64,000 bases of DNA, taken from NCBI GenBank assembly GCA_947623745.1, contig CANQHN010000007.1, positions 1-64,000 on the forward strand, read 5' to 3'. Positions 1,268 through 17,927 of this stretch are shown here, one piece after another. A model generated the notes under the pieces. The model was not told where the DNA came from. It saw only the letters and a list, made by a program, of their open reading frames with translations, and ran no database searches. Within the stretch, counting starts at the first letter, position 1, and every line of letters begins with the position of its first letter. This DNA comes from an uncultured Oscillospiraceae bacterium. GTDB lineage: Bacteria; Bacillota; Clostridia; Oscillospirales; Oscillospiraceae. The translations under genes were made by a program, and so were the position numbers.

Positions 1268-3283
1268 TTAGTCTACCCAGTGAATCACATTCTGCTTCTT
1301 TGCCAGCAGTTTCCCTGGTTCCTTTGGCCAACCCAAGGCGAGGGTAGCCCAGACGATATGCCGGGCCGGAACACCATACTCGTCCAGCAGGGCGCGGATC
1401 TCTGGCTCGTCGCTGATGGTATACAGGGCATTGATCCACACCGAACCTAAGCCTAGGGAGTGAGCCGCCAGCATCATGTTCTCCGCAGCGCAGGAACTGT
1501 CTTGAATACCATTCCGATTCCTGCGGTCGTTTGAAACCAAGATAACTGCCTGGGGGTTGTTGAAACCATAGAAATGGACATTTTTCTCTTTCGCCACTTT
1601 TTCTGTAACAGATTTCAGCTGTTCGATCTTCTCTGAGCCTTGCAACACCGTGAACTGCCAAGTCTGCATATTGTGGCCGCTGGGGGCGTGGATGCCAGTC
1701 TGCAAGATCGTTTCCAGATATGCCCTGGGAACGGGCTTGTCCGTAAAATCTCGGATGCTCCGCCGTTCCATCAGACAACGAATCACCTCATTAGTCTGGG
1801 ACTGGTCATTTGTAACATAATACTTTCGGTTCAGTTTTCCGTTGTAAGTCTTTTCTATTCTGGGGACCTGTTCGTAGTATTGTGGAACTTTATAACGTTC
1901 CAGCCTTGATAACAGGAAACTGCGCAACCCTTTACGGTCAAATTCAGCACCATCTCGCAATACAACCAACAATTTCAGGGCCTTTCCTGCTATCTGGTCA
2001 TCGATGCCAATACAAATACAGTCCTCAATACCATCGTATCCCAGAGCCGCCGATTCCACTTCTGTGGGCGCTACCTTTAGGCCCCCCACATTGATGACGT
2101 CACCCTTTCGTCCGAAAACATAAACAAATCCATCTTTATCTATGTAGCCGATATCACTTGTATATACAATGCCGTTTATCAAAACATCAGCTGTATCTTC
2201 TGGGTCATTGACATACCCTTTCATATTTACATCACCGATACAAGCCAGTAATCCCAAGCAATCTTTTGAGGATTCGATCTCTCGTTTTTCCTCATCCACA
2301 ACGATGATCTTTGAATTCGGCATAGCTTTTCCAACACAACCAGCCATACCCCGATACCTATTGTAGTCATACATACAGACAGACGCAGCTTCAGAAGATC
2401 CGTAGTTATTATAAAGTCTCGTATTTGGCAGCAGAGAACAAAGTTTGTTCTTATCAGGCTCAGGCAGCGGAGCGGTAGCTGATTCAATAAAATCTATTCT
2501 TTCGGAGTATTCCCCTATCTTATCTTGTGTTGTTTGGAATATGGTCCGAATCGCCGCCGGTGGCAAACAGCAGGCAACCCGCCCATGCGGATAGTCAAGC
2601 GCTGTAAAAAAATTCCGCATGTTCATCATACCGTTGAGTATATATACTGTGCTTCCATTCACAAGTGACGTATAAACCTTTCTGATTGCATTCGCATGAT
2701 TCAGCGGCCCAGGTACAATCATTACTGTATCCTTTTGATACTGGCACCCAAAAATTAAATTTTCAGCCGTCGCAGTCAATGCTTTATGGGATAGCTCCAC
2801 TCCTTTTGACTGGCCCGTCGTGCCTGTTGTAAAGAGAATGTCAGCTGAGTCATTCTCCGTTGGAAATGAGTAGGTATCGCAATCACTTAGATTCTCCCTT
2901 GCCGCTTCTATAATGTTGTTGCGTTTTAGAACGATATAATCCGCGCCTTGACTCGGGTACAAATCATCAACAATAACTCGAGCAGATAATTTTTTTACTA
3001 CTTCCAATATGCTTTCAGATGGTGTGTTCCGTTCCTGTGGTGCAATTATACCTCCCGCGAGGTGGACGGCGAGGTACAAAACTACAAAGTCCAGTTTCTG
3101 ACTTGCCTTTGCGACAACAATATTGCCCTTTTTGACTCCCGCTTTTTTCAGGCAATTGCAGTATCCCCGGACCAGCTCAAATAATTCCCTGTATGTCGTT
3201 TCTTGGGAATCAGCAATGACTGCTACTTTTTCCGGTGTAGTCGCTGCGTATTCTGAAACATACTTCACGACAGACTTTCTCAT
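1268..3283 (-). CDS. Adenylate-forming ligase fused to FMN nitroreductase
   Basis: A 671-aa two-domain protein. Residues 1-490 are an ANL-superfamily acid-activating enzyme. Visible motifs are the P-loop TTGTTGQSKG (about 152-161), YNNYGSSE (about 296-303), the ribose-binding Asp in YTSDIG, the GRKGD hinge (about 391) and the A10 lysine in GKLNRK (about 483). The hinge-region motifs look more like acyl-CoA ligases than DltA. Residues 505-665 are a nitroreductase-fold domain with RRSIRDF, APSGHNMQTW and LGLGSVW, the usual FMN-binding features. The carrier-protein gene lies directly upstream, with MBOAT and SGNH genes before it. I infer that it activates a carboxylic acid, loads the carrier and oxidises or reduces the acyl group. 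ATG 3283 is preferred over TTG 3298 because GGGAGA lies 6 nt before it. The substrate is unknown. Confidence 0.85.
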   Translation of the reverse strand: MRKSVVKYVSEYAATTPEKVAVIADSQETTYRELFELVRGYCNCLKKAGVKKGNIVVAKASQKLDFVVLYLAVHLAGGIIAPQERNTPSESILEVVKKLSARVIVDDLYPSQGADYIVLKRNNIIEAARENLSDCDTYSFPTENDSADILFTTGTTGQSKGVELSHKALTATAENLIFGCQYQKDTVMIVPGPLNHANAIRKVYTSLVNGSTVYILNGMMNMRNFFTALDYPHGRVACCLPPAAIRTIFQTTQDKIGEYSERIDFIESATAPLPEPDKNKLCSLLPNTRLYNNYGSSEAASVCMYDYNRYRGMAGCVGKAMPNSKIIVVDEEKREIESSKDCLGLLACIGDVNMKGYVNDPEDTADVLINGIVYTSDIGYIDKDGFVYVFGRKGDVINVGGLKVAPTEVESAALGYDGIEDCICIGIDDQIAGKALKLLVVLRDGAEFDRKGLRSFLLSRLERYKVPQYYEQVPRIEKTYNGKLNRKYYVTNDQSQTNEVIRCLMERRSIRDFTDKPVPRAYLETILQTGIHAPSGHNMQTWQFTVLQGSEKIEQLKSVTEKVAKEKNVHFYGFNNPQAVILVSNDRRNRNGIQDSSCAAENMMLAAHSLGLGSVWINALYTISDEPEIRALLDEYGVPARHIVWATLALGWPKEPGKLLAKKQNVIHWVD

Positions 3284-3306
3284 TCTGTTCTCTCCCAACG
3301 CCGTAG

Positions 3307-3534
3307 CTACCGGCTCAACCTCTCTACCATGGCTGCCATGGCTGCGACAGAGTTAAAGTTCTCCTCAATAATCTCCTCATAAGGGATCACGATGCCAAAC
3401 TCCATGGTCAGAGCCGCAATAATGGTGGTCAGAGTCAGGGAATCCAGGATCCCGTCGTTCACCAGCTCCTCTGAGGCAAAGAAATCGACTTCCGGGCACT
3501 CTTCCTGGAGCACCTTCAAAACCTTCTCTTCCAT
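3307..3534 (-). CDS. Acyl/peptidyl carrier protein (DltC-like)
   Basis: A 75-aa acidic helical protein of carrier-protein length. The phosphopantetheine attachment motif is DSLT, with Ser32 as the modified residue. It follows the MBOAT gene by about 20 nt and precedes the adenylation-nitroreductase gene. It should carry the activated acyl group as a thioester from the adenylating enzyme to the MBOAT transferase, as DltC does for D-alanine. Holo-form conversion would need a phosphopantetheinyl transferase encoded elsewhere. Whether the cargo is D-alanine or another acid cannot be read from the sequence. Confidence 0.85.
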   Translation of the reverse strand: MEEKVLKVLQEECPEVDFFASEELVNDGILDSLTLTTIIAALTMEFGIVIPYEEIIEENFNSVAAMAAMVERLSR

Positions 3535-3556
3535 AAGGGTACCTCCGATATGTTAT

Positions 3557-5089
3557 TTAGAAATTCATGTAGACAAACGATGCAGCGTCATACCCTGGCC
3601 CATACATTCCAAAAATCAGAATAGAGAAGAATGCAATGTAATAAATTGCCCAACGGAAAACGATGTTGCATCCGGCAATGCGGTCCCGGACACTGCCCTT
3701 CTCCTGGAGCATACTGGCTGTCCATAGAATGAAGATACACAGTACACCGAGGATAAAGTTGGGTCTGTCCAGCCCCAACGTGTAGAGAGAACCGTCCACC
3801 AGAACGGCAGGCTGAAAGTCAAACAACAGCTTTTGAAAGATTTTGCCCGATACGGCCAAATCCCCAGGGACGGTCAAGATACGGCCCACGGTGAACAGCA
3901 GGAAAGTGCGAACCATCTGGAATACTTTCCAGCTTCCAACCTCCGTGTTGATGTGCAGAAGCCGGTTCAATTTTTTAATTTCCGGCGCAAAAACATTGGA
4001 GCAGATAATCATCGCACCCCAGTAGAGACCCCAGACCACGTAATTCCAGCCAGTGCTGTGCCAAAGGCCAGTCAAGATCCATACTATTGCCAGCGGCACG
4101 ACTGTCATCACAGACTTACCTACCCGCGGTCCAAACTTCTGCCGAAGCTTTTTGCTCACTCCAATTAGCGTTGGAGAGACCGCCAGGGGCATATACACGT
4201 AGTCCTTGAACCAAGTCCCCAGGGTGATGTGCCACCGCCGCCAGAACTCTGCCGCCGACCTGGAGAAGAAGGGATGGTTAAAGTTGGCCTCCAGCTTCAG
4301 CCCGAGGATCTGTGAAAAACCGCCGGCGATATCCATACAGCCGGAAAAGTCGCAATAGAGCTGGACGGTGGCAAAGCAGGCCGCCACGAGGAAGTGGGAC
4401 CCAGCGTAGGCATCTGGTGTGCCGAATACGGTGTTTACTACCACTGCCAGTCGGTCTGCGATGACCATCTTCTTGAAGTAGCCCCAGATCATGAGCTGGA
4501 GGCCATAGCAGAACTCTCTATAGTCAAACTTGTGGAACTCCCGGAGCTGCGGAGCTAGGTACTTGTGCCGGGATATGGGTCCCTGTAAAATCTTTGGGAA
4601 ATAGATGGTGAATAACAGTAACCGAAAATAGCTGTGCTCCGCCTGATCTTTCCGCCAGTATACGTCAGCTAAGTAAGAAATCAGCGAAAAGGTATAGTAG
4701 GAAACCCCAAGCGCCACTATGATTTCAATGGAGGATAGCTGCTGGAACTCCAGCAGCTGGGTCATAGTCTCTATGACCCAAGAACCGATCTTGGCATAGA
4801 GTAGAAGGGCAATGAGTATACCCACTGATAGCAGGAGGACCGGCTTACAGCGCTTTTTAGCCGTGGTAGCGTCGGCCTCCTTCTGATAAACATTTGATAT
4901 CCACGCTCCCGTTGCCCAAGTGATCCAAGTGGCCAGAAGAATGAAAATAATTTTCCTCCAACCGTAGGTCAGATAGAATATCACGCTGGCGGCCAGGACG
5001 ACTAGCCACTGAATTTTCTTGGGGAGAAGATAGTAGGCCAATATAACAATAGCAGCAAAGAGAAAGAAGCGAAATTCTGTAAAGCTCAT
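3557..5089 (-). CDS. MBOAT membrane-bound O-acyltransferase (DltB/AlgI family)
   Basis: A 510-aa polytopic membrane protein with about ten hydrophobic segments. It carries the MBOAT signatures WRRWHITLG (about 283-291) and the invariant histidine in GLWHS (His344). DltB/AlgI proteins move acyl groups from carrier or donor to cell-surface polymers. Its ATG overlaps the stop of the SGNH gene (ATGA), and it is followed by the carrier protein, the same functional grouping as dltBCD or algIJF. It probably O-acylates the polysaccharide made by this locus. The acyl group is likely supplied by the adenylation-nitroreductase enzyme. Confidence 0.92.
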   Translation of the reverse strand: MSFTEFRFFLFAAIVILAYYLLPKKIQWLVVLAASVIFYLTYGWRKIIFILLATWITWATGAWISNVYQKEADATTAKKRCKPVLLLSVGILIALLLYAKIGSWVIETMTQLLEFQQLSSIEIIVALGVSYYTFSLISYLADVYWRKDQAEHSYFRLLLFTIYFPKILQGPISRHKYLAPQLREFHKFDYREFCYGLQLMIWGYFKKMVIADRLAVVVNTVFGTPDAYAGSHFLVAACFATVQLYCDFSGCMDIAGGFSQILGLKLEANFNHPFFSRSAAEFWRRWHITLGTWFKDYVYMPLAVSPTLIGVSKKLRQKFGPRVGKSVMTVVPLAIVWILTGLWHSTGWNYVVWGLYWGAMIICSNVFAPEIKKLNRLLHINTEVGSWKVFQMVRTFLLFTVGRILTVPGDLAVSGKIFQKLLFDFQPAVLVDGSLYTLGLDRPNFILGVLCIFILWTASMLQEKGSVRDRIAGCNIVFRWAIYYIAFFSILIFGMYGPGYDAASFVYMNF

Positions 5090-6723
5090 GCCGCGTCCTC
5101 CCCAAAACAGACTTTGGACTCGTAGGCGCGGAGGTAAGCATTTATACTACTCCAGTTGCGAGAAGCAGAGTTTGATGTCAGGCTGGTATCAAAGCAAACA
5201 CTGTCAATCACCAGTCCGTTTTCATTGTCATAGACAACAATACTGAGGCCTCTGCCTCCAAGCGCATAGTTTTTACCATTCAAGGTAATTGCGCAATAGG
5301 ATGAAACATTCCAACCGGCACTGCTCATACTGACTGGGACTCCATTGACTTCTGCCACATGGTCTATCCTGCGACCGGAAACAGCCTCATACTCTACATT
5401 ACCTCGATTGATGAATGCCATGTATGCGTCTCTAAAATTGCCATTCCTAATCAGAGACAGACCTAAACTTTCAAACCGGTCATATATCTCCGCTTTCATC
5501 CCTGCGGTATACTCGTCGCTGGCAGCGATGAACACAGACCATTGTTTACTGTTATCAGAAAGTCTGTCTAGATACTTTGCCAAATCCATCTCTGATTGTA
5601 ACATAGCCACCTCTCTCACTTTGTCGTACAGCGTGGCATAAGCGTCGTATTGTGGGTTGCTCTGCTGGCGGACAGAACAATGGTCCAGCAAATAGGTCCC
5701 CAATACATCTGCGACTTTCTCAGCGCCTCTGATATTAAGATGACCACCTGCATCGTGAGTATCCGTAACCCAATTGATTCCGATATCTGTATCGTACTGC
5801 AAATCGTAAAATGCGATATCATAGGACTGCGCCAACTTATGTACCTCATCTGACTGGCTCTTCATCCATGCACCCCCGTATTGTGGGTATACAAGTTTTG
5901 GAATCTGGGCCAAAACCAGTTCCGCTTTGTTCTCGTCGCACAGCTCCTTGATTTTTAGAAAGCTCTGCATTGCGTAATCCGTGATTTGAGGTGGGACATA
6001 TGTCTTTTTGATTGTTTCAGCTTTGGTTTCATCCCCGGTCCGCTCTGTAATGTATGAATCCTGTTGTAATATGTCAGAGACACCGTTTATTTCCTCTATG
6101 GTCGCGTATGTGTTTGCAGCGGCGATGCCGTTAACCCACTCGCCCAGCGAATAATACTCCCCACCGTAGTTCAAATCAAAGTCCTCTTTTGCCAATTTAT
6201 TCCATCTTGTGTGATATTTGGCGATTGGGAACAACGCTGGAATCCATCCGTTGCTATACGGAACTGTATCGTAATCTCTCACCATGTCAAATTTAAATTC
6301 ACTAAGCCGGTAGTTATCCAAAATGTGCCACCATCTTATGGTATTTTTATCTACCGTTGGTACATCAAAAAGATACCCCGCCTGTAAGACGACAACAGTT
6401 GGCTTTTGTTTTGTAAAGGCATCTTTCAATAACCAATATGCAGCTTCTATAGGCTGGCCGCTTGTTGCAAGGCTATATCCACAGATTCCAGTTTTTTCAT
6501 ACAAACGTATCGGCGATACCCCGTATTCCGTTCCACTTGGGCCGATAAAAATCACATCAACAGTTCCTGGTTCAATCCTTCTTATACCATCAATAATCCT
6601 GTCGGCATTTTCTCGTTTTTGAGATGCAGCCGGGATAAAGATATCCTGGAGCAGTGAAAAAATCGTGATTCCAATCAGCAAAAAAACAACTGGCTTTATA
6701 AATGCCGTGGCTTTATTCTTCAT
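5086..6723 (-). CDS. SGNH-like acyl transfer protein (DltD/AlgX type)
   Basis: 545 aa with an N-terminal membrane anchor (about residues 10-30) followed by a large extracytoplasmic domain. IGPSGTEYGVSP (nucleophile candidate Ser63) corresponds to the GSSE-type block of DltD/AlgX SGNH proteins, and a DAGGHLN motif further on offers the Asp/His pair. The last 100 residues look like a separate beta-rich segment. Start ATG 6723 is chosen because GGAGG lies 6 nt upstream; a longer frame to 6744 has no ribosome site. It is coupled to the MBOAT gene by a 4-nt overlap. Probable role: the extracellular partner that takes the acyl group from the MBOAT and places it on the glycan. Confidence 0.78.
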   Translation of the reverse strand: MKNKATAFIKPVVFLLIGITIFSLLQDIFIPAASQKRENADRIIDGIRRIEPGTVDVIFIGPSGTEYGVSPIRLYEKTGICGYSLATSGQPIEAAYWLLKDAFTKQKPTVVVLQAGYLFDVPTVDKNTIRWWHILDNYRLSEFKFDMVRDYDTVPYSNGWIPALFPIAKYHTRWNKLAKEDFDLNYGGEYYSLGEWVNGIAAANTYATIEEINGVSDILQQDSYITERTGDETKAETIKKTYVPPQITDYAMQSFLKIKELCDENKAELVLAQIPKLVYPQYGGAWMKSQSDEVHKLAQSYDIAFYDLQYDTDIGINWVTDTHDAGGHLNIRGAEKVADVLGTYLLDHCSVRQQSNPQYDAYATLYDKVREVAMLQSEMDLAKYLDRLSDNSKQWSVFIAASDEYTAGMKAEIYDRFESLGLSLIRNGNFRDAYMAFINRGNVEYEAVSGRRIDHVAEVNGVPVSMSSAGWNVSSYCAITLNGKNYALGGRGLSIVVYDNENGLVIDSVCFDTSLTSNSASRNWSSINAYLRAYESKVCFGEDAA

Positions 6724-6746
6724 GCTAAACCTCCATATCCCCAATA

Positions 6747-7757
6747 TCAGTTAGAGGCATGATGTTTCCTATTATTTTGTAACAGGCTCTTCACATACTC
6801 CTTAATCCCCAACCCATCCAGCAAACGAATCAATGTTTTCCTCGCGTATGTCACTGTCATGAAAAACAGTGCTTGCATCCGGGAAAAAAACCATAGTGCT
6901 GATGGGCCCTTCCTACAGTAATGCTCATATAGCGCTCTCCATTGCCAATGACCGACCAGCGTATGCTTCTCCAAATAGCGGTTGGGATCATACTTCGGAA
7001 AGGATAGGTCCAACTGTCTCTTGTAATCTAGCACCACGAAGCATTCCGCGAAAGCCTGCTCTGTCTGCTCCGCCAGAGAACGATTCCAGTCATAGTAGCA
7101 GTTGCAGGTTACCTCCTGGCGTATACGCAAAAAGCTGAGGAAAATATGCTGCTCCGGGGTATAGCGGCTAATATAATTAATAAAAAGGGAGGACTGTTTT
7201 TCGTGAGTCTTAAACCAGACACTCTCTTCCTTTGTCATGAGTTTTATATTGCCGTAATATGCCCGCACATCTTCTGTACGTCCAAATACCAACCAGTCGG
7301 AGGGATGAAAACACGTCCTGAATACTCGCGGGTTCCTGGTGTAATAACTACAAATCAGCAGCCGGTTCCGAAAGTATTGTGATGGAATTGCATCATATTT
7401 CCCGAAGTAGGACAAAAATCCTGCATCACGGAACAGGAGATCTGTACGGGTTTTCAAAATGTAGTGGCGATCCGCGGCTTTCAATCCCGCCTGGGTACTA
7501 ACAAGCTGTCGGTTCACGTTATTCAATGTCCCTACGACTTCATCCACTACTACAGTACCAGGATCAGGCGAACAAATCACCTTATCCACGTCCAGTTCGG
7601 AGACATCGCTACCTGTCCAGGTGGATAAAATCAACTGTGCCCCTGGAAATGCAGCTCGAAGGGACCGTAAACACTGGTCTGTAATTCCTGGAGAGATAGC
7701 TCCCTGACACACAATAGAAATCTCCCTGGGGGAAACAATTGTATCAATTTTCATCAT
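6747..7757 (-). CDS. WavE-family glycosyltransferase-like protein
   Basis: 336 aa of the WavE type, a family linked to lipopolysaccharide and capsule synthesis with a GT-A-like fold. Visible family blocks are SIVCQGAISPGIT near residue 14, LILSTWTGS near 42, DKVICSPDPG near 58, NNVNRQLVSTQAGL near 79 and a LKTRTDLL block. A basic C-terminal tail may touch the membrane. Its start overlaps the stop of the triple WavE gene (ATGA), so the two are co-translated. It probably adds one sugar, or a phospho-sugar, in repeat-unit assembly. Donor and acceptor are unknown. Confidence 0.8.
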   Translation of the reverse strand: MMKIDTIVSPREISIVCQGAISPGITDQCLRSLRAAFPGAQLILSTWTGSDVSELDVDKVICSPDPGTVVVDEVVGTLNNVNRQLVSTQAGLKAADRHYILKTRTDLLFRDAGFLSYFGKYDAIPSQYFRNRLLICSYYTRNPRVFRTCFHPSDWLVFGRTEDVRAYYGNIKLMTKEESVWFKTHEKQSSLFINYISRYTPEQHIFLSFLRIRQEVTCNCYYDWNRSLAEQTEQAFAECFVVLDYKRQLDLSFPKYDPNRYLEKHTLVGHWQWRALYEHYCRKGPSALWFFSRMQALFFMTVTYARKTLIRLLDGLGIKEYVKSLLQNNRKHHASN

Positions 7758-10700
7758 TTCTTAAAATCCACTTTATCTTCGTCCTCTCGAGGAAAGAGCT
7801 GTTTCTTAAGCTGCTCCAGCTCTCTCTCCTGCTTTCCCTGCGCCTTTATCAGTTCATTGACCTGATAAGACAGATAATTGAATCGGTCATACTCCGCTGC
7901 CTCAAACATCATCAATCGGTCACGTGTCCCCGCGCCAACACGATAGGCAGGCAGAATAAGGCGCATGATACGTTTAATTCCTTTCCTGAAAGTGTGGATG
8001 CAACTCACAATTGCTTTTTTTGTAATGGACATAATTGTCCACACAACCGATTTCTTCGGGGTAGGGGGCACCGTGTATTGCTCCTTCAGATAGGCCAGGC
8101 ACGTCTCATTTCCCGGTTCGATATTGTAGAGATAGAGTTCGAGCAGACGATTGAAGGTCAGGCCAACTGGATAGTTCTCATCGCGGAATTTGAACGCGAT
8201 TCCCAGCTGTTGGTTGCTGCCAATCAGGATATTCGACGCATAGACCTTCTCTGCCTCAAATGTCAAACGCTCCGAGGAATAATCACAATAATATTCGGGA
8301 AGCTGGATATTGATTCTGCTCTTACGGAGCGCATTCAGGAAAAAATACTGCTCAGCAAGATATCGATGATTGAATCTCTCAGGGTTTTCCCATTCTGAAT
8401 CTGGATGCTCGGTAAAATAGATAAAGGACTCGGCCGGTTCACTGTGTCCGTCCCAGAGCTCTAGCAAATCCTCCGTCAATCCCATCTGGAAACAATCAGA
8501 TAGGCAGTACGGTCTTACAATTGCCCGGGTATCATGCGTAAATGCTCTCAGCACCAATACCCGTTCTGAAAAAAGGCGGTATCTGTTGTCTGATTTATTC
8601 AACTCCTGCGCCCATCTGTTGTAAAAATGGAAACAGTTGTCATTAATCAGATACTGATCTGTTCGCATCCGCACAGCGTACCTGGTGGTCACTCGCTCCA
8701 TACCGGCATGGACACTAATCTGTTGCAAGTTGACACTATTTTTTTTCTTATTGGGATTATCAGCCAAATAGCATGGAGGTTGCTCTCCCAGTGGCTGTTC
8801 CATCAGAACAAGCTCATCATAAAGTCCAGTCAAGGCTTCCACGGGCTCTCCCCGCCAAGTAGAGAGGATGATCCTGGAGTGGGGAAAAAAACGCCGGATA
8901 GAGCTTAAACACCGCTGTCCGTTGAACTCTCCACTTAATTCGATTTTTCCACTCACTACAAAGGTAAGGTCATCTTTCCTTACCGGAGCGATATCCGGAA
9001 AAGAAATCTGATTCCTCAGTCTAGCGTAATTTCCTATAATTGCTGTATAATCCGCAACGTTGTAATACTCCGGAGCAGTTAGATATTTTGTCTTCTGAGC
9101 CTTATCCTCTTCCTGGATTGTACGCGGAGCGGAGGTATCCGGCAGGGTCCTGTATTCCTCGCAAAGTCTGAGCCAGGCGGCAAATGGCACATTGTTTATA
9201 TACCGGCATGGGTTGTCCGTGTTTTTTGCCTTTGGCAGTGTTACCCCGCTTTTAGAACACTCCAAGCACAGCAGGCTACCCGCTAAAAATTCGCGGTATT
9301 TGTCCAGCAATGTGGGAGAGTTATCAAAGGTGTGTTTAAAATAAAGTTGCTCGCGGATATGCGGAGGGCAATATTTCCGCATAAAGGAATAGACGATATA
9401 TTGTTCAGGAATAAACCTACAAATCAGATCAGCGAAACGAGGTTTTTTGTCCTTGTTCTCTGCTCTTTCAAAATAGGGTAATTCTTCCCGGGGATATAGA
9501 GGAATATTGAATAGTCGCTCCAAATCGCTAGTCAATCCCAAATACCACCAGTCTGAGACAGCAAAGGGAAACCTCTCTGCAGTGAGGAATCCCTCTACCA
9601 TGACGCGGCGCGACACAGGCGCGTCTGGGGAAAGGTACTGAGAATAGCGGTTATAGTAGTCTAAAAAGTCGGCGGAAATAAGGAGCATATCGCTGCGTAC
9701 CTTCATACTGTAGCGCCGGGAGGCAGCCTGAACCCCCGCCCTACTGGATACAATCTGTCGGTTGACATTGTGGACGTGTTCGTGGGGGAACCGGCGAATA
9801 AGCCCATTCGGTCCGGGATCGGGACTAAATATGACCTTATCATAATCCAGGCCGTCCACATCTGTGCCCTCCCAAGTGGACAGAATGATCTCCGCACAGG
9901 GAAGGACTTTGCGAATGCTCTCCAGGCATTTTTTTGTAGTGACGGATACCGCGCCCTGCACTATGATTGAGAGCGTCTCGTCTGTCACTGGTTCGTCGAA
10001 ATAGCTTTCAATATAGTTTTGATTGTCCGAACCCGAAAACAGCTTGAAATAGCATGCCTTTACCTTTACATATATGGGCTTCAACAAGGCTCTGGTATCC
10101 GGCGTTAGACGCGGTTTGACTTTTTCAAGCAGGAAATCTCGCACCATGTAAGGAAATCTTCTAAAGATTCCAGCAACTGTTCCAAACAGGCCTTTCCCGC
10201 TTACCTTGAGTATGTACAGCGCATAAAATAGAATATTCCTTTTGCAATACCAATGATAGAGGCATAGCCAATCAAAGTGATTAAAGCAATTGTTTCCTCC
10301 CTGACTGTTTTGATAGACACTATTCTTTGCGCATTTGATACCGATTTGTTCGTTACTCAAAATAATCAAATTAGCTGCGAATGTAATCTCTGTCAAAAAA
10401 ATCGCTCTGCTGGAAGTATCTTCCCTATCTTTGGGTAAGGCGACATCATCATGCAGATGTTTTTTTAGAAAACTAATCCACAAACACTGTTCTGGAGAAA
10501 AGCGCGGAAGTGCGTATTCAAAACGCTCTGGATACTTATTTGCAAAATAAATTCTATCATCATCCGGGATGGGGGGGATATCAAATAAATCTATTAAATC
10601 CTGCGTTAATCCGAAAAAGAAAAAATCGGCTGGGTGCAGTGCGTGCAGATGTGGTAAATGGCGGTAACGGGGGTTTCTGGAATATCGCTCACAACAAATT

Positions 10701-11101
10701 ACTTTCCGCTGAAAAAAAGAGTATTGCTTATCCCTGGCAGGATATTGATTGAACCACTTTAAAAAACCAGTTGATTTCAGCACAAAGTCGGTGCGTAGCT
10801 TTACAGCATAAGGTGTTTTTGCTTGTATGAGTCCCTGAAATGTAGAATGTCTCTGCCGGTCAAAATTGTTTTGCAGAGAACATTCCGTATTAAAGTAGTC
10901 AAAACTGCCTGGGTCCTCATTCAGTAACACTTGGTCATAATCCAGCCCCTCAACATTTGTTTCCTTCCAAGTTGAGAGGATAATTGTCGCACCAGGCAAA
11001 TGCTCTCTAATACTAGCGAGGCACAGAGGGGTGATAAATTTGTCAACTGCGCCCTGCACTACCACTGAAATATCCTTTGTATCTATCCCGCTGATAACCA
11101 C
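7754..11101 (-). CDS. Triple-domain WavE-family glycosyltransferase-like protein
   Basis: 1115 aa holding three consecutive WavE-type units. Unit 1 is about 1-330 (VVVQGAV at 13, IILSTW at 40), unit 2 about 375-660 (IIVQGAV at 379, IILSTW at 405), unit 3 about 710-1015 (FVVSGKI at 714, IILSTW at 744). Units 1 and 2 keep the D-Y-D and DPG blocks. Unit 3 is more divergent, with EQPLGEQP in place of DPG. The last 60 residues are a charged helical, coiled-coil-like tail. Together with the next gene the locus therefore encodes four related units. I infer sequential sugar additions by one polypeptide. Known WavE proteins have a single unit of about 300 aa. Confidence 0.8.
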   Translation of the reverse strand: MVISGIDTKDISVVVQGAVDKFITPLCLASIREHLPGATIILSTWKETNVEGLDYDQVLLNEDPGSFDYFNTECSLQNNFDRQRHSTFQGLIQAKTPYAVKLRTDFVLKSTGFLKWFNQYPARDKQYSFFQRKVICCERYSRNPRYRHLPHLHALHPADFFFFGLTQDLIDLFDIPPIPDDDRIYFANKYPERFEYALPRFSPEQCLWISFLKKHLHDDVALPKDREDTSSRAIFLTEITFAANLIILSNEQIGIKCAKNSVYQNSQGGNNCFNHFDWLCLYHWYCKRNILFYALYILKVSGKGLFGTVAGIFRRFPYMVRDFLLEKVKPRLTPDTRALLKPIYVKVKACYFKLFSGSDNQNYIESYFDEPVTDETLSIIVQGAVSVTTKKCLESIRKVLPCAEIILSTWEGTDVDGLDYDKVIFSPDPGPNGLIRRFPHEHVHNVNRQIVSSRAGVQAASRRYSMKVRSDMLLISADFLDYYNRYSQYLSPDAPVSRRVMVEGFLTAERFPFAVSDWWYLGLTSDLERLFNIPLYPREELPYFERAENKDKKPRFADLICRFIPEQYIVYSFMRKYCPPHIREQLYFKHTFDNSPTLLDKYREFLAGSLLCLECSKSGVTLPKAKNTDNPCRYINNVPFAAWLRLCEEYRTLPDTSAPRTIQEEDKAQKTKYLTAPEYYNVADYTAIIGNYARLRNQISFPDIAPVRKDDLTFVVSGKIELSGEFNGQRCLSSIRRFFPHSRIILSTWRGEPVEALTGLYDELVLMEQPLGEQPPCYLADNPNKKKNSVNLQQISVHAGMERVTTRYAVRMRTDQYLINDNCFHFYNRWAQELNKSDNRYRLFSERVLVLRAFTHDTRAIVRPYCLSDCFQMGLTEDLLELWDGHSEPAESFIYFTEHPDSEWENPERFNHRYLAEQYFFLNALRKSRINIQLPEYYCDYSSERLTFEAEKVYASNILIGSNQQLGIAFKFRDENYPVGLTFNRLLELYLYNIEPGNETCLAYLKEQYTVPPTPKKSVVWTIMSITKKAIVSCIHTFRKGIKRIMRLILPAYRVGAGTRDRLMMFEAAEYDRFNYLSYQVNELIKAQGKQERELEQLKKQLFPREDEDKVDFKK

Positions 11102-11842
11102 TTACTCCACCCCGAATACTTTTTTTGATAATCTCAGCTTCAAAAACTTCTCCAGATCCTCCGGTGTACCCAAGCCGTGCATTTTTGCCCCTACATCCTT
11201 ATAGACCAATTTCATTCCGGCCTCCACCATCTCATTGTAGACTGGGGCCACATAGAACTCACCGTTGACCCGGATATTCTTTGCAATCATTTGGTTGGCA
11301 TATTTTACAAAATCATGTCCATGCCTGTAGTTGTAGATGCCCACTGTAGCCTGGTCGGAGATAACCTTCTTCTCCCGCACTAAGGTGACAAAACCCTCTT
11401 CGTTATACCGGATATAACTCCATTTGGTGCTGGTGCCAGGCATGGTCATAATGAGACCGTCATAGTTACCCATGGTGGTCAAATATTCGTTAATGTCCGT
11501 GTCCACATACTGGTCGCTGTTGGCAATCATCAGGGGAGTATCGTTGTTGATGTACCGCTCCGCCAGAAGAACAGTGCAAGCCGCACCCTCAGTGATATGG
11601 TCCACCGTTACCACCACGCACCCGGGAGCCATGCGTTCCAGTTTGTTTTTGATGTCATACCTCTCCAGATGCTCCTGCTGGCAGATGAAAATAAAGCGGT
11701 GTTCCTGAATGGGACGGATATTTCGAATCACATACTCGATCATGGGATGTCCGTAAATATCAATCAGTGGTTTAGGCAGGGTGTAGCCAGCGTTGACAAA
11801 ACGGCTACCCCGTCCGGCCATCGGCACAACAATATTCAGCAT
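11102..11842 (-). CDS. Sugar-phosphate nucleotidyltransferase
   Basis: 246 aa beginning with the Rossmann-like nucleotidyltransferase signature VVPMAGRGSRF and then LPKPLIDIYGHPMIEYV, the GxGxRF plus PKP pattern of NDP-sugar pyrophosphorylases. SDQYVD fits the metal-binding Asp region. The product should be an activated sugar or polyol (NDP-linked) for the locus glycosyltransferases. The gene overlaps the end of the cupin gene by a few bases and is followed at once by the triple WavE gene. Base specificity cannot be set by eye. Confidence 0.85.
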   Translation of the reverse strand: MLNIVVPMAGRGSRFVNAGYTLPKPLIDIYGHPMIEYVIRNIRPIQEHRFIFICQQEHLERYDIKNKLERMAPGCVVVTVDHITEGAACTVLLAERYINNDTPLMIANSDQYVDTDINEYLTTMGNYDGLIMTMPGTSTKWSYIRYNEEGFVTLVREKKVISDQATVGIYNYRHGHDFVKYANQMIAKNIRVNGEFYVAPVYNEMVEAGMKLVYKDVGAKMHGLGTPEDLEKFLKLRLSKKVFGVE

Positions 11843-12171
11843 TTGGAACCCTCCACAATGTATTTGTCGTTGTTAGCTCCGGGAATTTTGACCACCACGT
11901 TCACCACATCTGTCACAGACTCAAAATCCGTGACGTCTCCCGGCTCCATGACAACGATATCTCCTTCGGTGTATTTGACGCCATTCATCCGGACCTCTCC
12001 GGATAGGATTACTGTAAATTCCGTGGCAATTTTATGATAGTGGGAGCCCTCATAATCACCAGCCTTGTAGCGCTTGACCGCCACCTCAACATCATTGGTT
12101 CTATAAAGTGTCGGCTCGAAATTGCCAATAAACCAACCTTTGACCATCTCTCCTAGGTATGCTGTCCTCAT
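11836..12171 (-). CDS. Cupin-fold protein
   Basis: 111 aa single-domain cupin. The first conserved box is visible as GSHYHKIATEFTVILSGEV (two His plus Glu) and the second is degenerate (PGDVTDFESVTDVVNVVVK). Such small cupins in polysaccharide loci are often sugar isomerases/epimerases or binding proteins. It lies between two nucleotidyltransferases, with a 4-nt overlap upstream (ATGA) and an overlap downstream, so all three are probably made in fixed ratio. GGGAGG precedes the ATG. The precise reaction is not identifiable. Confidence 0.75.
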   Translation of the reverse strand: MRTAYLGEMVKGWFIGNFEPTLYRTNDVEVAVKRYKAGDYEGSHYHKIATEFTVILSGEVRMNGVKYTEGDIVVMEPGDVTDFESVTDVVNVVVKIPGANNDKYIVEGSKC

Positions 12172-12905
12172 AACTGCCTCCCTTTTTGCTCTGCCAGGTA
12201 TGCCTCATAGGCTTTCATACCAGAGGCGTGGCTAAAATTATAATACTGATCTTTCTTGATTCGATACACTCCGATGACCTGCTGCCGTAATATCATTTCG
12301 TTGAAGGCCGGACAGATAAAAAAACTTCCGTTCACGCTAGCGTTCTTGCGAATCATATCTTGGGCAGCTTCAAAGAAAAACCTAGCCTTTCGGTAGTAAT
12401 AGAATCCAGCCACGGCATTCCGGCTGATAGGACGCTTCTCCGCCGCTTCAATCACATGGTCATATTCGTCCAGCTTTACATAGGACCACCTCGGGTGCAC
12501 ATCATCAAAAATTGCCACGCCGCCGTCGTATCCATGGCACCGGAAATCAGCCAAAATCCTCTCTGGGGGAACCAGAAGGATCTGGTCACTGCCAGTAATC
12601 AGCATCGGCTCCTCCATGTCCAACTTATCCACAGCCAGCATACAAGTACAAGCTGCCCCCATAGTCTCACTCTCAGCAACAACTACCTCCACCCCCGGAC
12701 GGAGCAAGCGAGCAATATCATCTAAGTGATATTTATTGGCATCGGCACGTTTGATTACTATAATAAAATGGGTGGTTTTTACAGACTGAAGAGACTCAAA
12801 GACATACTGGAGCACTGTCTTTCGCTCAATCTCCTGAAGGCTTTTTATGTATTCAGTTTCATTTGCAGGTTTGTTGGCCCCTCCGATAGGGATAATGATA
12901 TTCAT
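12168..12905 (-). CDS. Nucleotidyltransferase-fold protein with degenerate signature
   Basis: 245 aa, similar in length and layout to the neighbouring canonical nucleotidyltransferase (shared blocks are EYVIRN-like helices, GAACT, the ITGSDQ metal region, PRWSYVK and NASVNGSFF). The N-terminal signature reads PIGGANKPANETEY instead of GxGxRF...PKP, so the key Arg and Lys are missing. It may bind but not catalyse, or may use an unusual substrate, and could pair with the active copy. Its ATG overlaps the HAD gene stop. A duplication followed by divergence is the simplest origin. Confidence 0.7.
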   Translation of the reverse strand: MNIIIPIGGANKPANETEYIKSLQEIERKTVLQYVFESLQSVKTTHFIIVIKRADANKYHLDDIARLLRPGVEVVVAESETMGAACTCMLAVDKLDMEEPMLITGSDQILLVPPERILADFRCHGYDGGVAIFDDVHPRWSYVKLDEYDHVIEAAEKRPISRNAVAGFYYYRKARFFFEAAQDMIRKNASVNGSFFICPAFNEMILRQQVIGVYRIKKDQYYNFSHASGMKAYEAYLAEQKGRQL

Positions 12906-13549
12906 GCTGTCACCCCGCTCTCTGCCTCAAAACGGCGAATGTGATTCATGATATTTTCATAGTTCACATCGTAAACTGTCTCAACCTTCATTACCCTTGC
13001 TCCCGCAGCTGATGCTGCCTGGATTCCGTTGTGGTTATCCTCTACCACCATGACCTCCTGTGGCATGAGTCCAAGACGGCCGATGGCAGTCAGATAGATT
13101 TCGGGGTCTGGTTTGGCCTTTGTGACATCCTGATTGCTTAGAAAAAAGTCCAGATATGGAAGGAGACTGCTCTTCTCCATCATAAGTTCAACGGAGTTGC
13201 GGATGGAGTTGGATGCCACCGCCAATCTGTAACCCTCCGCCTTTAGACGTGAGAGTGCGTACTCATGGGTAAACAACGGCGCACAGTAGAGATTCACCAT
13301 ATCTATGGTGTACTGTTGTTTCATATCGCTGATAAAGCGGTGCAATCCGACAGGCAATCCCTTCTCGAGGCTGAGCATCTCCAGTTTTTTTACTGTGGGC
13401 AGGCCATCATAGGTCACCAGATGGTCATACCGGCTAATTTCATGGCCAAACAACCGTAAAGCTTTATTCAGCGCCTCATAATGCCAGTCCTTCGCTTCAA
13501 TAAGAACCCCGTCCATGTCAAAAACGACAGCTCTGATTCTTTCTCCCAT
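12902..13549 (-). CDS. HAD-superfamily phosphatase (beta-phosphoglucomutase-like)
   Basis: 215 aa. The catalytic loop is VVFDMDGV (nucleophile Asp11, acid/base Asp13), with a cap domain of about 70 residues, a SNS motif II, Lys in KAKPDPEIY and acidic VVEDNHNG as motif IV. This is the subfamily IA pattern that includes phosphoglycolate phosphatase and beta-phosphoglucomutase. ATG 13549 is preferred, with GGGGTGAG upstream; a longer frame to 13657 would overlap the previous gene without reason. In this operon it most likely removes a phosphate from a sugar or glycerol phosphate intermediate. Confidence 0.85.
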   Translation of the reverse strand: MGERIRAVVFDMDGVLIEAKDWHYEALNKALRLFGHEISRYDHLVTYDGLPTVKKLEMLSLEKGLPVGLHRFISDMKQQYTIDMVNLYCAPLFTHEYALSRLKAEGYRLAVASNSIRNSVELMMEKSSLLPYLDFFLSNQDVTKAKPDPEIYLTAIGRLGLMPQEVMVVEDNHNGIQAASAAGARVMKVETVYDVNYENIMNHIRRFEAESGVTA

Positions 13550-13554
13550 TTCAC

Positions 13555-14193
13555 TCACCCCAACTTGTCCTGGAAAAAATCTGCGGCATCCCCTGGCTTG
13601 TCCGTACAAAGGAGGACATAATCCCAGTTCAAATGAAATGACTTGAGTTTCTCCCAAAAGGGAATATGCTCCCGCTGGTGGAGCTCAGGTGAAACGAGGC
13701 ATACTTTTTTCCCGCTACTGATATGTTCCCTCAGCATATCCTCTGTGATCCAGTCCGTCCTCCAGAAGCCGTCGATCCATACACCAGCAGCGCTGTTATA
13801 CATGACTGGTTCCGGCTCGACTTCACTCTGGCGGGTGAAATACGTGATGCCAACCTCCGCATACTCCACCATTTGCGGTACAGACATATCAAAGGTAAAG
13901 TAATTCGTAATTCCGTATGTTTTTAGCAATACGGCCAACTGTTCTTTTAATCCGTCCGCCTTGATATTAATGGCAAAACAACATCGATTCTGAAACTTGG
14001 AAAGCCATTGAAACACTTCATCCACCTTTTGGCAGCCAGCATCCGCAATGTTGTGAGAAATGACCAGTTCTCCCATATAGTCGCGGATATCTGATTCAAA
14101 ACCAAAACCGCTTTCCATGGCGCGACAAAGCGCGGCCGGACTGTTGCTTAAAATATCTGCCCCCCAATATCCACGATGCGCTAGTATTTTCAT
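13555..14193 (-). CDS. GDPD/PLC-like phosphodiesterase
   Basis: 212 aa with a glycerophosphodiester phosphodiesterase-like start: HRGY (His6), FESDIRD (Glu33, Asp35) and ISHN (His47 where the family has HD). The TIM-barrel-like remainder is short for the family. Start 14193 follows AGGAAGG and clears the ATPase gene stop at 14208. Likely roles are trimming a glycerol-phosphate-type linkage or making glycerol phosphate for a polymer substituent. The partly altered second histidine block means activity should not be assumed. Confidence 0.75.
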   Translation of the reverse strand: MKILAHRGYWGADILSNSPAALCRAMESGFGFESDIRDYMGELVISHNIADAGCQKVDEVFQWLSKFQNRCCFAINIKADGLKEQLAVLLKTYGITNYFTFDMSVPQMVEYAEVGITYFTRQSEVEPEPVMYNSAAGVWIDGFWRTDWITEDMLREHISSGKKVCLVSPELHQREHIPFWEKLKSFHLNWDYVLLCTDKPGDAADFFQDKLG

Positions 14194-14207
14194 ATTCTCT
14201 GCCTTCC

Positions 14208-14936
14208 TCATATCACGTAATGATTGCATACATTTTCTGTGCTACCTGCCATCTGGATGCGTCCACTCTCCAGCCAGATGACCCGGCTGCACATCTCCCG
14301 AATCTGCTCCAGGTTATGGGACACGAACAGCACCGTGGTCCCACCGCCCATCAACTCCATCATCCGAGCACGGCTCTTTGCCTGAAATTCCGTGTCGCCC
14401 ACAGAGAGGATCTCATCTACGATCAAGATCTCAGGCCGTACCATGGCCGCCACGGAAAAGGCTAGTCGGGCCAGCATCCCAGAGGAGTAGTTCCGAATGG
14501 GGACGTCAATAAATGCTCCCAGCTCAGAGAAATCCAGGATCTCCTGGTACTTTTCCTTGAGGTACTCCTCGCTGTAGCCTAGGATCGCTCCATTCAGGAA
14601 AACATTCTCCCGGCCCGTCAAATCGAAATCGAAACCGCTGCCCAATTCCAGCATGGGCACCACATTCCCGTGGACCGCCACTGTGCCCTCCGTTGGCTTC
14701 ATAATGCCGGAAATTACTTTGAGGAGTGTACTCTTACCAGCCCCGTTTCGGCCTATCAGGCCCAGCGTCTCCCCCTTCTCGACTGTAAAGGAAACATGTT
14801 CAAGAGCGGTAAATTCGTTGTATTCCAACTTCCCCCTTAGGGCCGTCGTCACAAATTCTTTCAGCGACATAATACGGTCGTTGTTCATCCGAAACCGCAT
14901 AGTCACATCGTTGACTTCAATCATTGTTTGACTCAT
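14208..14936 (-). CDS. ABC polysaccharide exporter ATP-binding protein (Wzt/TagH-like)
   Basis: 242 aa. Walker A is GRNGAGKST (about 62-70), the signature is NYSSGMLARLAF, Walker B is ILIVDE followed by a switch His in FVSHNLEQI. The family is that of Wzt, TagH and RfbE, which power export of O antigen, teichoic acid or capsule on a lipid carrier. It is short, without the C-terminal glycan-binding domain of long Wzt proteins. It follows the permease gene by 9 nt. Confidence 0.93.
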   Translation of the reverse strand: MSQTMIEVNDVTMRFRMNNDRIMSLKEFVTTALRGKLEYNEFTALEHVSFTVEKGETLGLIGRNGAGKSTLLKVISGIMKPTEGTVAVHGNVVPMLELGSGFDFDLTGRENVFLNGAILGYSEEYLKEKYQEILDFSELGAFIDVPIRNYSSGMLARLAFSVAAMVRPEILIVDEILSVGDTEFQAKSRARMMELMGGGTTVLFVSHNLEQIREMCSRVIWLESGRIQMAGSTENVCNHYVI

Positions 14937-14945
14937 AGCAACCTC

Positions 14946-16403
14946 TTATAGGTACAGAACGAACCGGTCCTGCGTCTTGCGGAACACAAGAGCTCCTACC
15001 AACAGCATAGCCAAGGCGATGACAAAACACTGGAAGTAGATAAAGGGCTCGGGAGACAGCCCGTCCAGGATGCACATACGGGTATTCTTCAGGAAATGGT
15101 ACAGAGGGTTGATTGTCAAAATGAACCTGAACTGCTCAGGCAGAATGCTCTCCGGGTAGAAGATGGGGGTGGCATACATCCACGCCATGCTGAATACGCC
15201 CCACAAGAACTGGGTATCCCGGAAAAAGACCATGGATGCCGACAACAGCAATCCAAGCCCCAGGCTAAATACCACAAGGCAGGCAAGGAAAAACAGTGCC
15301 AGTACTGCGGATTTTTTGAACTGTACCCCTGTGACCAGGGAGACAAGGATCAGCGGAATCAGGGAGATGCTCAAATTGACCACAGAGGACATGACCCGGG
15401 TCAGTGGGTAGATATATTTAGGGACATATACCTTGGTAATCAGGCCGGCGTTGCCCAAGATAGAGGTGAGGGACATCCCGCAGGCTTCAGAGAAAAAGTT
15501 AAAGGACACGATGCCAATAAGCAGGTATACGGCGTAATCGGGAATATCGCTCTTAAAGATGGTGGAGAACACAAAATACTGCACACACATCATCATGAGC
15601 GGGTTGAGGAAGCTCCAGAACACACCCAACACCGAGCGCTTGTACTTCGTTTTAAAATCTCGGGATACCAACTGTCGAATCAGGAATCGGTATTTCTGCA
15701 CCGCGATGAGTGCGTTGACCACATAGCTGTGTTTCCCGCTCTTCCATCGGTGCCACACAAAAGCGATACCCAGGGCCAGGAGAAGGCCAAACCCAGCAGC
15801 AAATTTCCAGTAGTGCAGGCCGGTCCAGATGTAGTCCTCCCCTGAGGCGGAGAAGCAGAGAACACCGTCAGTCGGCGCTCCATTGACCGTGAGAGAAAAA
15901 CCGTCCTCATGGGCGGAGACAGACATCAGCGGCGAGACTGCGCCGCCGGGCAAGCTGTCTGCGTAGATGCGTAACAACAGGGGCACACCATACGCTGTCT
16001 CAATGGGCGTGTCCACAGACATAGTGGTCAGTCCGCCTTCCGAAATCGCTGCCGCGTCGAAGCTCTGGCTCATGACCAGAGAGTTGTCCGCCAAGCTATA
16101 CAGTTCCATTGTCACCGTGCCCGCATTGGGCCGGTAATAGGTCCCCCACTGTACGGAAACTGACTGGAACCGCTGGATATCCGCTTTGAATACCTGCTCC
16201 ACAACTGCACCCTGGGTGAGCTCCACGGTCCCGGCCTCCGCAGCGGGCAGGTCTAAATTGCCGCGGGACTGGCGGAAATGGAGCTGGTCTCCGGCAAGCC
16301 AATAGAACAGGAAAACCAGAACGATATATGCGGCTGCAACAATCACCAACGGTTTCTTTATATCGATGGGGGCCTCGGCCTTTGGCCGGTCATGTTTCCT
16401 CAT
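14946..16403 (-). CDS. ABC polysaccharide exporter permease with N-terminal ectodomain (Wzm/TagG-like)
   Basis: 485 aa, about twice the usual Wzm length. Residues 17-37 form one membrane helix, and about 40-190 a beta-rich domain that should lie outside the cell. A second helix (about 198-217) follows, then a standard ABC-2 permease core starting at LIRQLVSRDFKTKYKRSVLG, with six hydrophobic segments. The core signature is typical of teichoic-acid and O-antigen exporters. The added ectodomain may receive or recognise the exported glycan, a job done in other systems by the Wzt C-terminal domain, which is absent here. It is the first gene of the operon; the ribosome site is weak. Confidence 0.88.
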   Translation of the reverse strand: MRKHDRPKAEAPIDIKKPLVIVAAAYIVLVFLFYWLAGDQLHFRQSRGNLDLPAAEAGTVELTQGAVVEQVFKADIQRFQSVSVQWGTYYRPNAGTVTMELYSLADNSLVMSQSFDAAAISEGGLTTMSVDTPIETAYGVPLLLRIYADSLPGGAVSPLMSVSAHEDGFSLTVNGAPTDGVLCFSASGEDYIWTGLHYWKFAAGFGLLLALGIAFVWHRWKSGKHSYVVNALIAVQKYRFLIRQLVSRDFKTKYKRSVLGVFWSFLNPLMMMCVQYFVFSTIFKSDIPDYAVYLLIGIVSFNFFSEACGMSLTSILGNAGLITKVYVPKYIYPLTRVMSSVVNLSISLIPLILVSLVTGVQFKKSAVLALFFLACLVVFSLGLGLLLSASMVFFRDTQFLWGVFSMAWMYATPIFYPESILPEQFRFILTINPLYHFLKNTRMCILDGLSPEPFIYFQCFVIALAMLLVGALVFRKTQDRFVLYL

Positions 16404-16750
16404 ACGATCCCGCTCTTTCTTCCAACTAACAATTCAAATGATCTGCCGCAGTTTTCTTTCAACGATAGTGTTTTTCGTGGAGGTACCTCCACGAAGGGGC
16501 GGCATGGCCGCCCCTTATTTTACTTTCACACAGCAGCATACGTACGTAGCAAGCAAGTTTCATATTTCCCAACATTCTATATTGCGCTCTGCTTCATCTG
16601 GCATTCCTTATACTTATCGAGCCACACATAACCCGGTTCGCTGTGCACCCGGTGCTACACAAATATCCGCTCTCAAATCTAACGGAATAATACTACTGTT
16701 GCTTTTCTTTATATGGCCGTCTGAATCATCAAAGTAAAAAGCCAAAATTA
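16404..16750 (-). promoter_or_regulatory. Long untranslated leader of the polysaccharide operon
   Basis: About 345 nt from the predicted start of transcription to the permease ATG, without a credible ORF. It contains two adjoining perfect palindromes (16474-16516) and a short GCACC/GGTGC stem near 16644-16654. Long structured leaders of this kind precede polysaccharide operons controlled by processive antitermination (NusG paralogues such as LoaP, or UpxY in Bacteroides). No such regulator gene is in this window, so the mechanism is inference. Confidence 0.45.
16474..16516. repeat. Two abutting perfect palindromes in the operon leader
   Basis: The first, 16474-16495, is a 22-nt perfect palindrome with stem TTCGTGGAGG. 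The second, 16494-16516, is AAGGGGCGGC, a 3-nt spacer, then its complement. They share two bases. On the plus strand the second is followed by TTATTTT and could terminate plus-strand transcripts. On the minus strand it lies inside the operon leader, where it would fold as tandem hairpins. Confidence 0.75.
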
Positions 16751-16756
16751 CAGGTT

Positions 16757-16785
16757 ATTTTATCATGAGTGCGGTCATTTTTCAA
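16757..16785 (-). promoter_or_regulatory. Sigma-A promoter of the polysaccharide operon
   Basis: On the minus strand TTGAAA (16785-16780), a 17-nt spacer, then TAAAAT (16762-16757). This is near-consensus and the only strong promoter seen upstream of the permease. It drives the 13-gene operon down to 1268. Confidence 0.7.
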
Positions 16786-16862
16786 GGGAAAGTCTTGCCT
16801 ATCTGTCGCTTTTCACTGCTGAATTTCAGGTAACAGGGCCTCAATTTGTATATAAAATACAG

Positions 16863-16889
16863 GACTGTTAAAATATGGATTTAACAGTC
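16863..16889. repeat. 10-bp inverted repeat, weak bidirectional terminator or recombination core
   Basis: GACTGTTAAA, a 7-nt spacer and TTTAACAGTC. It lies 120 nt beyond the recombinase stop. T-rich tracts on both sides allow a weak terminator in either direction. The arm and spacer lengths also resemble tyrosine-recombinase core sites, but no second copy was found in the window. Confidence 0.5.
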
Positions 16890-17011
16890 TGCTTTTTCAT
16901 GCCCATTTTGGTGGGAGCACCCAGCAGAAACGTTTCTATCCGAAAATTGTCAAAGGCTTACCACAGCCGCTTTTCATACATCTGTATTATTCCGTTATGA
17001 AACAGTTTTTG

Positions 17012-17875: not shown

Positions 17876-17885
17876 AGGAAACCCT

Positions 17886-17927
17886 CCCAAAATAGTAGCA
17901 TGACCACTATTATTCTACCATTTTGGG
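17886..17927. repeat. 13-bp inverted repeat overlapping the recombinase ribosome site
   Basis: CCCAAAATAGTAG (17886-17898) and CTACCATTTTGGG (17915-17927) are complementary at 12 of 13 positions with a 16-nt spacer. The mismatch becomes a G-U pair in RNA. The arm nearest the gene overlaps the GGGAGG ribosome site, so folding of the transcript would hide it. A smaller AATAGT/ACTATT dyad lies inside. Candidate roles are translational autocontrol, a regulator operator or a recombinase binding site. Confidence 0.6.

Follow-up and report, generated by a model that had tools for sequence, protein, structure and literature searches.

The window analyzed here, a 64,000-nucleotide stretch of contig CANQHN010000007.1 from an uncultured Oscillospiraceae bacterium (assembly GCA_947623745.1), carries four adjacent minus-strand genes that encode an adenylating enzyme fused to a nitroreductase domain (A-NR), a carrier protein, an MBOAT acyltransferase and an SGNH-fold protein. 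We best read this cassette, from its sequence, as a carrier-fed MBOAT-SGNH acylation system with a ligase other than DltA and a fused nitroreductase (NR) domain. Neither the A-NR fusion nor the cassette was found described in the open-licence literature, as covered by titles and the beginnings of abstracts.

Components of the cassette

The A-NR protein (676 aa, 1268..3298, minus strand) combines a class I adenylation (A) domain at residues ~1-498 (1808..3283; G+C content at third codon positions, GC3, 0.41) with a flavin mononucleotide (FMN) nitroreductase-family domain at residues ~503-676 (1271..1801). By its A4 motif, PLNHA (the PLxH type), the A domain is assigned to the class I acyl/aryl ligases of the ANL superfamily. 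It also carries the P-loop TTGTTG and an A10 lysine, Lys488, which is K in 21 of the 22 A domains that we aligned, the remaining row being incomplete; these 22 do not include L015, which lacks that part. A preliminary description of this DNA had held that the activating enzyme is not DltA, and this was borne out: the DltA model TIGR01734 gave a score of 120 bits, its cut-off being 560, and nothing in the whole 3.05-Mb, 97.9%-complete assembly exceeded that cut-off. Moreover, Ala202 aligns with the amine-binding Asp of the FDxS motif in LgrA, and this position is A, S or V in 22/22 A domains and Asp in none. The NR domain is complete, as had been claimed, with PF00881 covering it from profile position 2 to 167 of 167.

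Beside the fusion lies a DltC-like carrier of 75 aa (3307..3534) with its phosphopantetheine serine in a DSL motif. This serine is conserved in 13/13 carriers of a first comparison set and in 8/8 of a second; the PP-binding family scores above its cut-off, and the DltC model reaches 28 bits (cut-off 68). The MBOAT (3557..5089) has a DltB-like core, scoring 147 bits with the DltB model (cut-off 375), a conserved histidine in its WH motif and the C-terminal sequence FVYMNF. An FxYxxF motif forms the C-terminal end of all 15 cassette MBOATs (8 and 7 in two sets). These two features are those of the MBOATs in MBOAT-SGNH acyltransferases, and the SGNH-fold partner expected of such systems is also present, as an acyltransferase candidate encoded at 5086..6744 that has PatB among its fold matches. 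Toward its C-terminal side, this candidate bears an ILEI-family domain (PF15711, residues 377-445, 40 bits, cut-off 27).

The cassette shares with Dlt, as the preliminary description proposed for the four-gene set, an adenylating enzyme, a dedicated carrier, a DltB-like MBOAT and an SGNH-fold partner, and the carrier thioester is the likely acyl donor. In contrast, its ligase is not DltA, lacks the amine-binding Asp and is fused to NR; its shuttle tyrosine sits on the MBOAT itself rather than on DltX; and its acceptor is probably a glycan exported by an ABC transporter. Judged from these features, the cassette resembles Dlt in its mode of action without being Dlt proper, because the A domain falls below the DltA model and lacks the Asp, and the MBOAT stays below the DltB cut-off. 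According to PMC12148441, the FxYxxF tyrosine of PatA is auto-acetylated, the same motif is found on DltX in Dlt, and DltB is carrier-fed; the MBOAT-SGNH pathways other than Dlt described there are without a similar carrier and use acyl-CoA. PatA/PatB and AlgI/AlgJ-type pairs thus resemble the window cassette in the C-terminal FxYxxF of the MBOAT and in the SGNH partner, whereas the carrier and the ligase set the window cassette apart.

Recurrence of the fusion and exchange of its A domain

Including the window, we found 11 A-NR loci, and because fusions of similar length recur, we rejected chance or an assembly artefact as their source. A scan of genome contigs returned eight loci, comprising three full fusions (L011, L012, L013), one with a frame break (L014), a partial one (L015) and three A domains without NR (L008, L009, L010). 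A profile search of genomes of the order added L042, and four more (L048-L051) came from a different family, that of G839, where NR was detected at E <= 1e-55 in 4/215 genomes. The neighborhood search proposed in the preliminary description, for the fusion beside MBOAT genes, gave a positive answer: an MBOAT adjoins the fusion in 7/11 A-NR loci, and the whole set of A-NR, carrier, MBOAT and SGNH is present in six (the window, L014, L048, L049, L050 and L051). The SGNH member of L049 is of the DHHW/AlgX type by Pfam, while those of L048, L050 and L051, which have no Pfam hit, were named by tblastn to the window SGNH protein. L011 has SGNH, MBOAT and A-NR with no carrier in view, its contig stopping inside the SGNH gene; L012 has a carrier and no MBOAT in the 10 kb upstream, its contig stopping ~1 kb downstream; both L013 and L015 are truncated where their contigs end. 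The L014 cassette, which has an in-frame stop in its MBOAT gene (6972-8507) and an A/NR frame break (9992-12015), may be decaying or misassembled.

At E <= 1e-60, NR was found in 1/394 genomes of the order and 1/391 of the class, in each case the window itself. This threshold is too strict, because L042, another fusion of this order, surfaced only through its A domain. Relatives of the A domain occurred in 2/200, 5/391 and 6/384 genomes, with the own genome counted each time and, for the latter two counts, three candidates scored per genome. Among viral contigs, 13 and 40 stretches fit a pattern and none encoded a relative; plasmids yielded 11 records at E <= 1e-30, none of which spanned 80% of the query or gave a confirmed fusion.

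The A domain and the rest of the cassette have discordant histories. The window and L014 are 76% identical in NR, 83% in the carrier and 64% in the MBOAT (the L014 MBOAT being two pieces joined across the in-frame stop), but only 30% in A, and we therefore consider that NR travels with the carrier and the MBOAT. The window A domain is 63, 60 and 54% identical to those of the NR-less loci L008, L009 and L010. In the tree of all 22 aligned A domains, those of the other nine NR fusions form one fully supported group, and the window A domain falls among the NR-less ones; a single clade of all ten NR-fused A domains was rejected by the approximately unbiased (AU) test (p = 5.1e-5 with 22 rows and p = 3.1e-8 with 13 rows). 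For the carrier, a grouping of the window with L008/L009/L010 was rejected (p = 9e-5), in a test weakened by the choice of this group after the A identities had been seen and by the very long L008 branch that it includes. Composition agrees with a swap and goes no further, since the GC3 of A is below that of NR (0.64), the carrier (0.71) and the MBOAT (0.64), but low values are also seen in the SGNH gene (0.46) and in the WavE genes (0.49-0.51). We conclude that the present A domain is probably a later replacement, introduced at the domain boundary into an A-NR/carrier/MBOAT operon that was already there. Such a swap would mean that NR belongs with the carrier and the MBOAT, and not with one particular A domain.

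Twelve further loci hold close relatives of the A domain and no NR; this set excludes the plasmid hits and L007, a distant ligase of the window's own genome (26-29%). A carrier is encoded within a few kb of A in all 12. An MBOAT is present in eight (L009, L010, L017, L024, L027, L039, L040 and L041), and a hexapeptide-repeat transferase replaces it in the other four (L008, L025, L026 and L038). The A/carrier pair thus appears to be a general module for supplying acyl groups, with MBOAT-SGNH as one outlet and NR as an added unit. The L008 carrier is of another type (20% identical). In three polysaccharide-like loci (L008, L012 and L038), an FrhB-like 4Fe-4S protein and a hexapeptide transferase immediately precede A-NR or the carrier/ligase pair, and a short-chain dehydrogenase/reductase (SDR) joins them in L008 and L012.

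Proposed chemistry and its alternatives

From the A-domain sequence we infer that the substrate is a carboxylic acid without an alpha-amine, and our best guess is a small diacid-like acid, polar or anionic at its other end. At the position that we take to be that of PheA Trp239, the window A domain has a pocket arginine, Arg206; among the 22 A domains this residue is R in 19 and K, T and D in one each. In a fold comparison of A-NR, in which the matches listed were taken up by the A domain, the top five include the diacid enzymes MatB, MenE and VinN, and DltA structures are also close in fold to the A domain. Na-coupled or TRAP-type importers adjoin 5/12 of the NR-less relatives: L008 and L009 have sodium:solute symporters, L039 has a CitMHS/Na_sulph_symp carrier that sits within the operon between A and the carrier-protein gene, and L025 and L041 have DctM. 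LysR-type regulators also occur near A/carrier genes (L025:3882-6357, L041:11457-13897 and L040:7471-8373), with DctM in two of the three loci, and may point to acid-responsive control.

On balance, we lean toward Dlt-like surface acylation with a different acid and with redox editing by the fused FMN domain. The A domain would adenylate a non-amino carboxylic acid and then load it onto the 75-aa carrier, a step that we infer because of the gene order and the conserved serine. The fused FMN domain would edit the acyl group while it is carrier-bound. Of the two possible directions, we would favor reduction of a C=C bond (ene-reduction) over oxygen-dependent desaturation because the host is presumed to be an anaerobe, looking like a gut anaerobe from its Lachnospiraceae/Oscillospiraceae kin records. 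The MBOAT would accept the carrier-bound acyl group and deliver it, through the membrane, to the tyrosine in its C-terminal FVYMNF, and the SGNH protein would pass it to a glycan delivered by the neighboring ABC exporter. An exported-glycan neighborhood, reported in the preliminary description, is indeed found at the window locus in the form of sugar genes and an ABC exporter. It is at this locus that the glycan-exporter link is seen; L012 has relatives of the same sugar genes upstream of A-NR (GDPD-like 59%, HAD 60%, cupin 67%, nucleotidyltransferases 72 and 35%) and no MBOAT in view. Two observations count against the proposed pathway and its substrate: the L048-L051 cassettes show no visible polysaccharide locus, where open reading frames were read by eye with no family search, and DctM is not rare, with 0-6 matches per genome in 11 such genomes.

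The NR domain itself is 49-60% identical to those of eight other fusions compared in addition to L014. Its nitroreductase motifs are conserved across the fusions (6 aligned rows), FMN binding is predicted, and the L012/L015 pair gives a nonsynonymous rate (dN) of 0.021 against a synonymous rate (dS) of 0.10, indicating purifying selection. Weak matches link it to BluB, NfsA-type and FbiB models. Within the nitroreductase superfamily, the FbiB C-terminal type and the enone reductase CLA-ER, both represented among the matches of NR, are reducers. At E <= 0.001, the window's genome has no hit to the SagB-type oxidase model TIGR03605, which is also absent from the matches of four NR sequences at E <= 0.01.

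An unlikely alternative is that NR oxidizes (desaturates) the carrier-bound acyl group, which would leave an unsaturated ester on the glycan. Members of the same superfamily carry out such reactions: TyzC desaturates N-acyl-Tyr in an O2-dependent manner (PMC10404671), and AlbA reportedly acts as a desaturase on the side chains of dipeptides (PMC2922099). OxzB is a ThiF-nitroreductase fusion (PMC10404671). OxzB and TyzB/TyzC resemble the window fusion in that an adenylating enzyme is fused to a nitroreductase-superfamily enzyme or encoded alongside one (PMC10404671), whereas theirs belongs to the ThiF superfamily rather than ANL and turns N-acyl amino acids into oxazolones. The window NR profile also matches albonoursin synthase 8uc3 (E 2.4e-13). 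We know of no MBOAT or glycan associated with OxzB or TyzB/TyzC. Against desaturation stand the oxygen requirement of TyzC, given a host that by its kin would be a gut anaerobe, and the lack of a SagB-type oxidase match in the window's genome.

NRPS (nonribosomal peptide synthetase) oxidases, e.g., BmdC with BmdB, pair a nitroreductase-fold flavoenzyme with adenylation and carrier domains. The window A-NR and its carrier resemble this arrangement, and the L042 fusion sits in a cluster of NRPS and polyketide synthase (PKS) genes; unlike those systems, no cyclization domain lies beside the window fusion, and its NR misses the SagB-type model. The NRPS precedent invoked in the preliminary description is weaker than was suggested there, since the oxidase model is unmatched and the weak hits are of the BluB, NfsA and FbiB kinds, although L042 does place one such fusion in an NRPS setting. 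There, a 677-aa A-NR lies inside the NRPS/PKS cluster (L042:5838-19158 and L043), between a ketosynthase-carrier protein (KS-PP) and an adenylation-carrier protein (A-PP). The cluster comprises a phosphopantetheinyl transferase, a thioesterase, KS-PP, A-NR, A-PP, a protein with thioesterase, condensation, adenylation and carrier domains (TE-C-A-PP) and a further A, followed by a PP protein, an ABC transporter and a second ABC-like open reading frame (by eye).

Ranked next, and likewise improbable, is a reading in which NR performs no chemistry on the acyl chain, serving instead for dimerization or docking, or reducing free acid, flavin or quinone, so that the cassette performs plain acylation. 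The A/carrier/MBOAT sets without NR in eight relatives would fit it, but the conserved nitroreductase motifs, the purifying selection on NR in one pair (L012/L015) and the persistence of the fusion across the A-domain swap all speak against it. Finally, the reading as a plain dlt operon for D-alanylation whose DltA has diverged, which would account for the same kinds of genes, the DltB score and the closeness in fold to DltA structures, is rejected as highly improbable, because the A domain lies far under the DltA cut-off, the amine-binding Asp is absent in all 22 A domains and the MBOAT bears its own shuttle peptide, as do all 15 cassette MBOATs.

Beyond the redox-edited, Dlt-like acylation that we prefer, we tentatively suggest, as a possibility that we hold with less than even confidence, a conserved class of envelope acylation in which a fused flavoenzyme edits a carrier-bound acyl group before export. 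The window would then encode a phase-variable capsule bearing a redox-edited, diacid-type ester, and A-domain exchange ahead of an unchanging NR-carrier-MBOAT core would alter the substituent. If true, the MBOAT-SGNH route lets bacteria decorate their surfaces with acyl groups beyond acetate and D-alanine, carrier-bound chemistry can precede export, and natural-product-style tailoring can be coupled to an MBOAT-SGNH exporter.

A stand-alone NR of the window's own genome, 42% identical to the window NR (BLAST), lies near a C5 MBOAT that is 31% identical to the window MBOAT (tblastn, residues 4-376) and ends in FLYFRF. We rejected this pair as a split cassette, as no A or carrier match at E <= 1e-3 was found in 18 kb.

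Gene context and a likely invertible promoter

The cassette terminates a polysaccharide/ABC-exporter gene run, all on the minus strand. A WavE-family gene (6747..7757) adjoins the SGNH gene and is followed by a gene whose 1115-aa product contains three WavE-family stretches (7754..11101) and which thus stands beside its single-stretch relative. Next come the sugar/nucleotide genes (11102..14229), two nucleotidyltransferase-like, a cupin, a HAD and a GDPD-like gene, of which the HAD was named by Pfam and the rest by eye, the GDPD-like one having no Pfam hit. The ABC exporter (14208..16403) consists of an ATPase, identified by eye, and a permease (ABC2_membrane) whose Wzm/KpsM-like match is below cut-off.

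Upstream of the operon lies a probable invertible promoter segment of 318 nt (16680..16997), bounded by a perfect 14-nt inverted repeat at 16680-16693 and 16984-16997. These two copies of the 14-mer are the only ones in the 3.05-Mb assembly, and a tyrosine recombinase gene (Phage_integrase, 17012..17890, minus strand) adjoins the segment. A search of the open-licence literature on invertible promoters matched no paper. Between the repeats, a promoter-like site at 16785-16757 (minus) points at the capsule operon; such a site is weak evidence, because the scan returned 30 of them where chance alone predicts 24.6. The bracketing inverted repeats, the promoter-like site and the adjoining recombinase together suggest that the operon is probably phase-variable.

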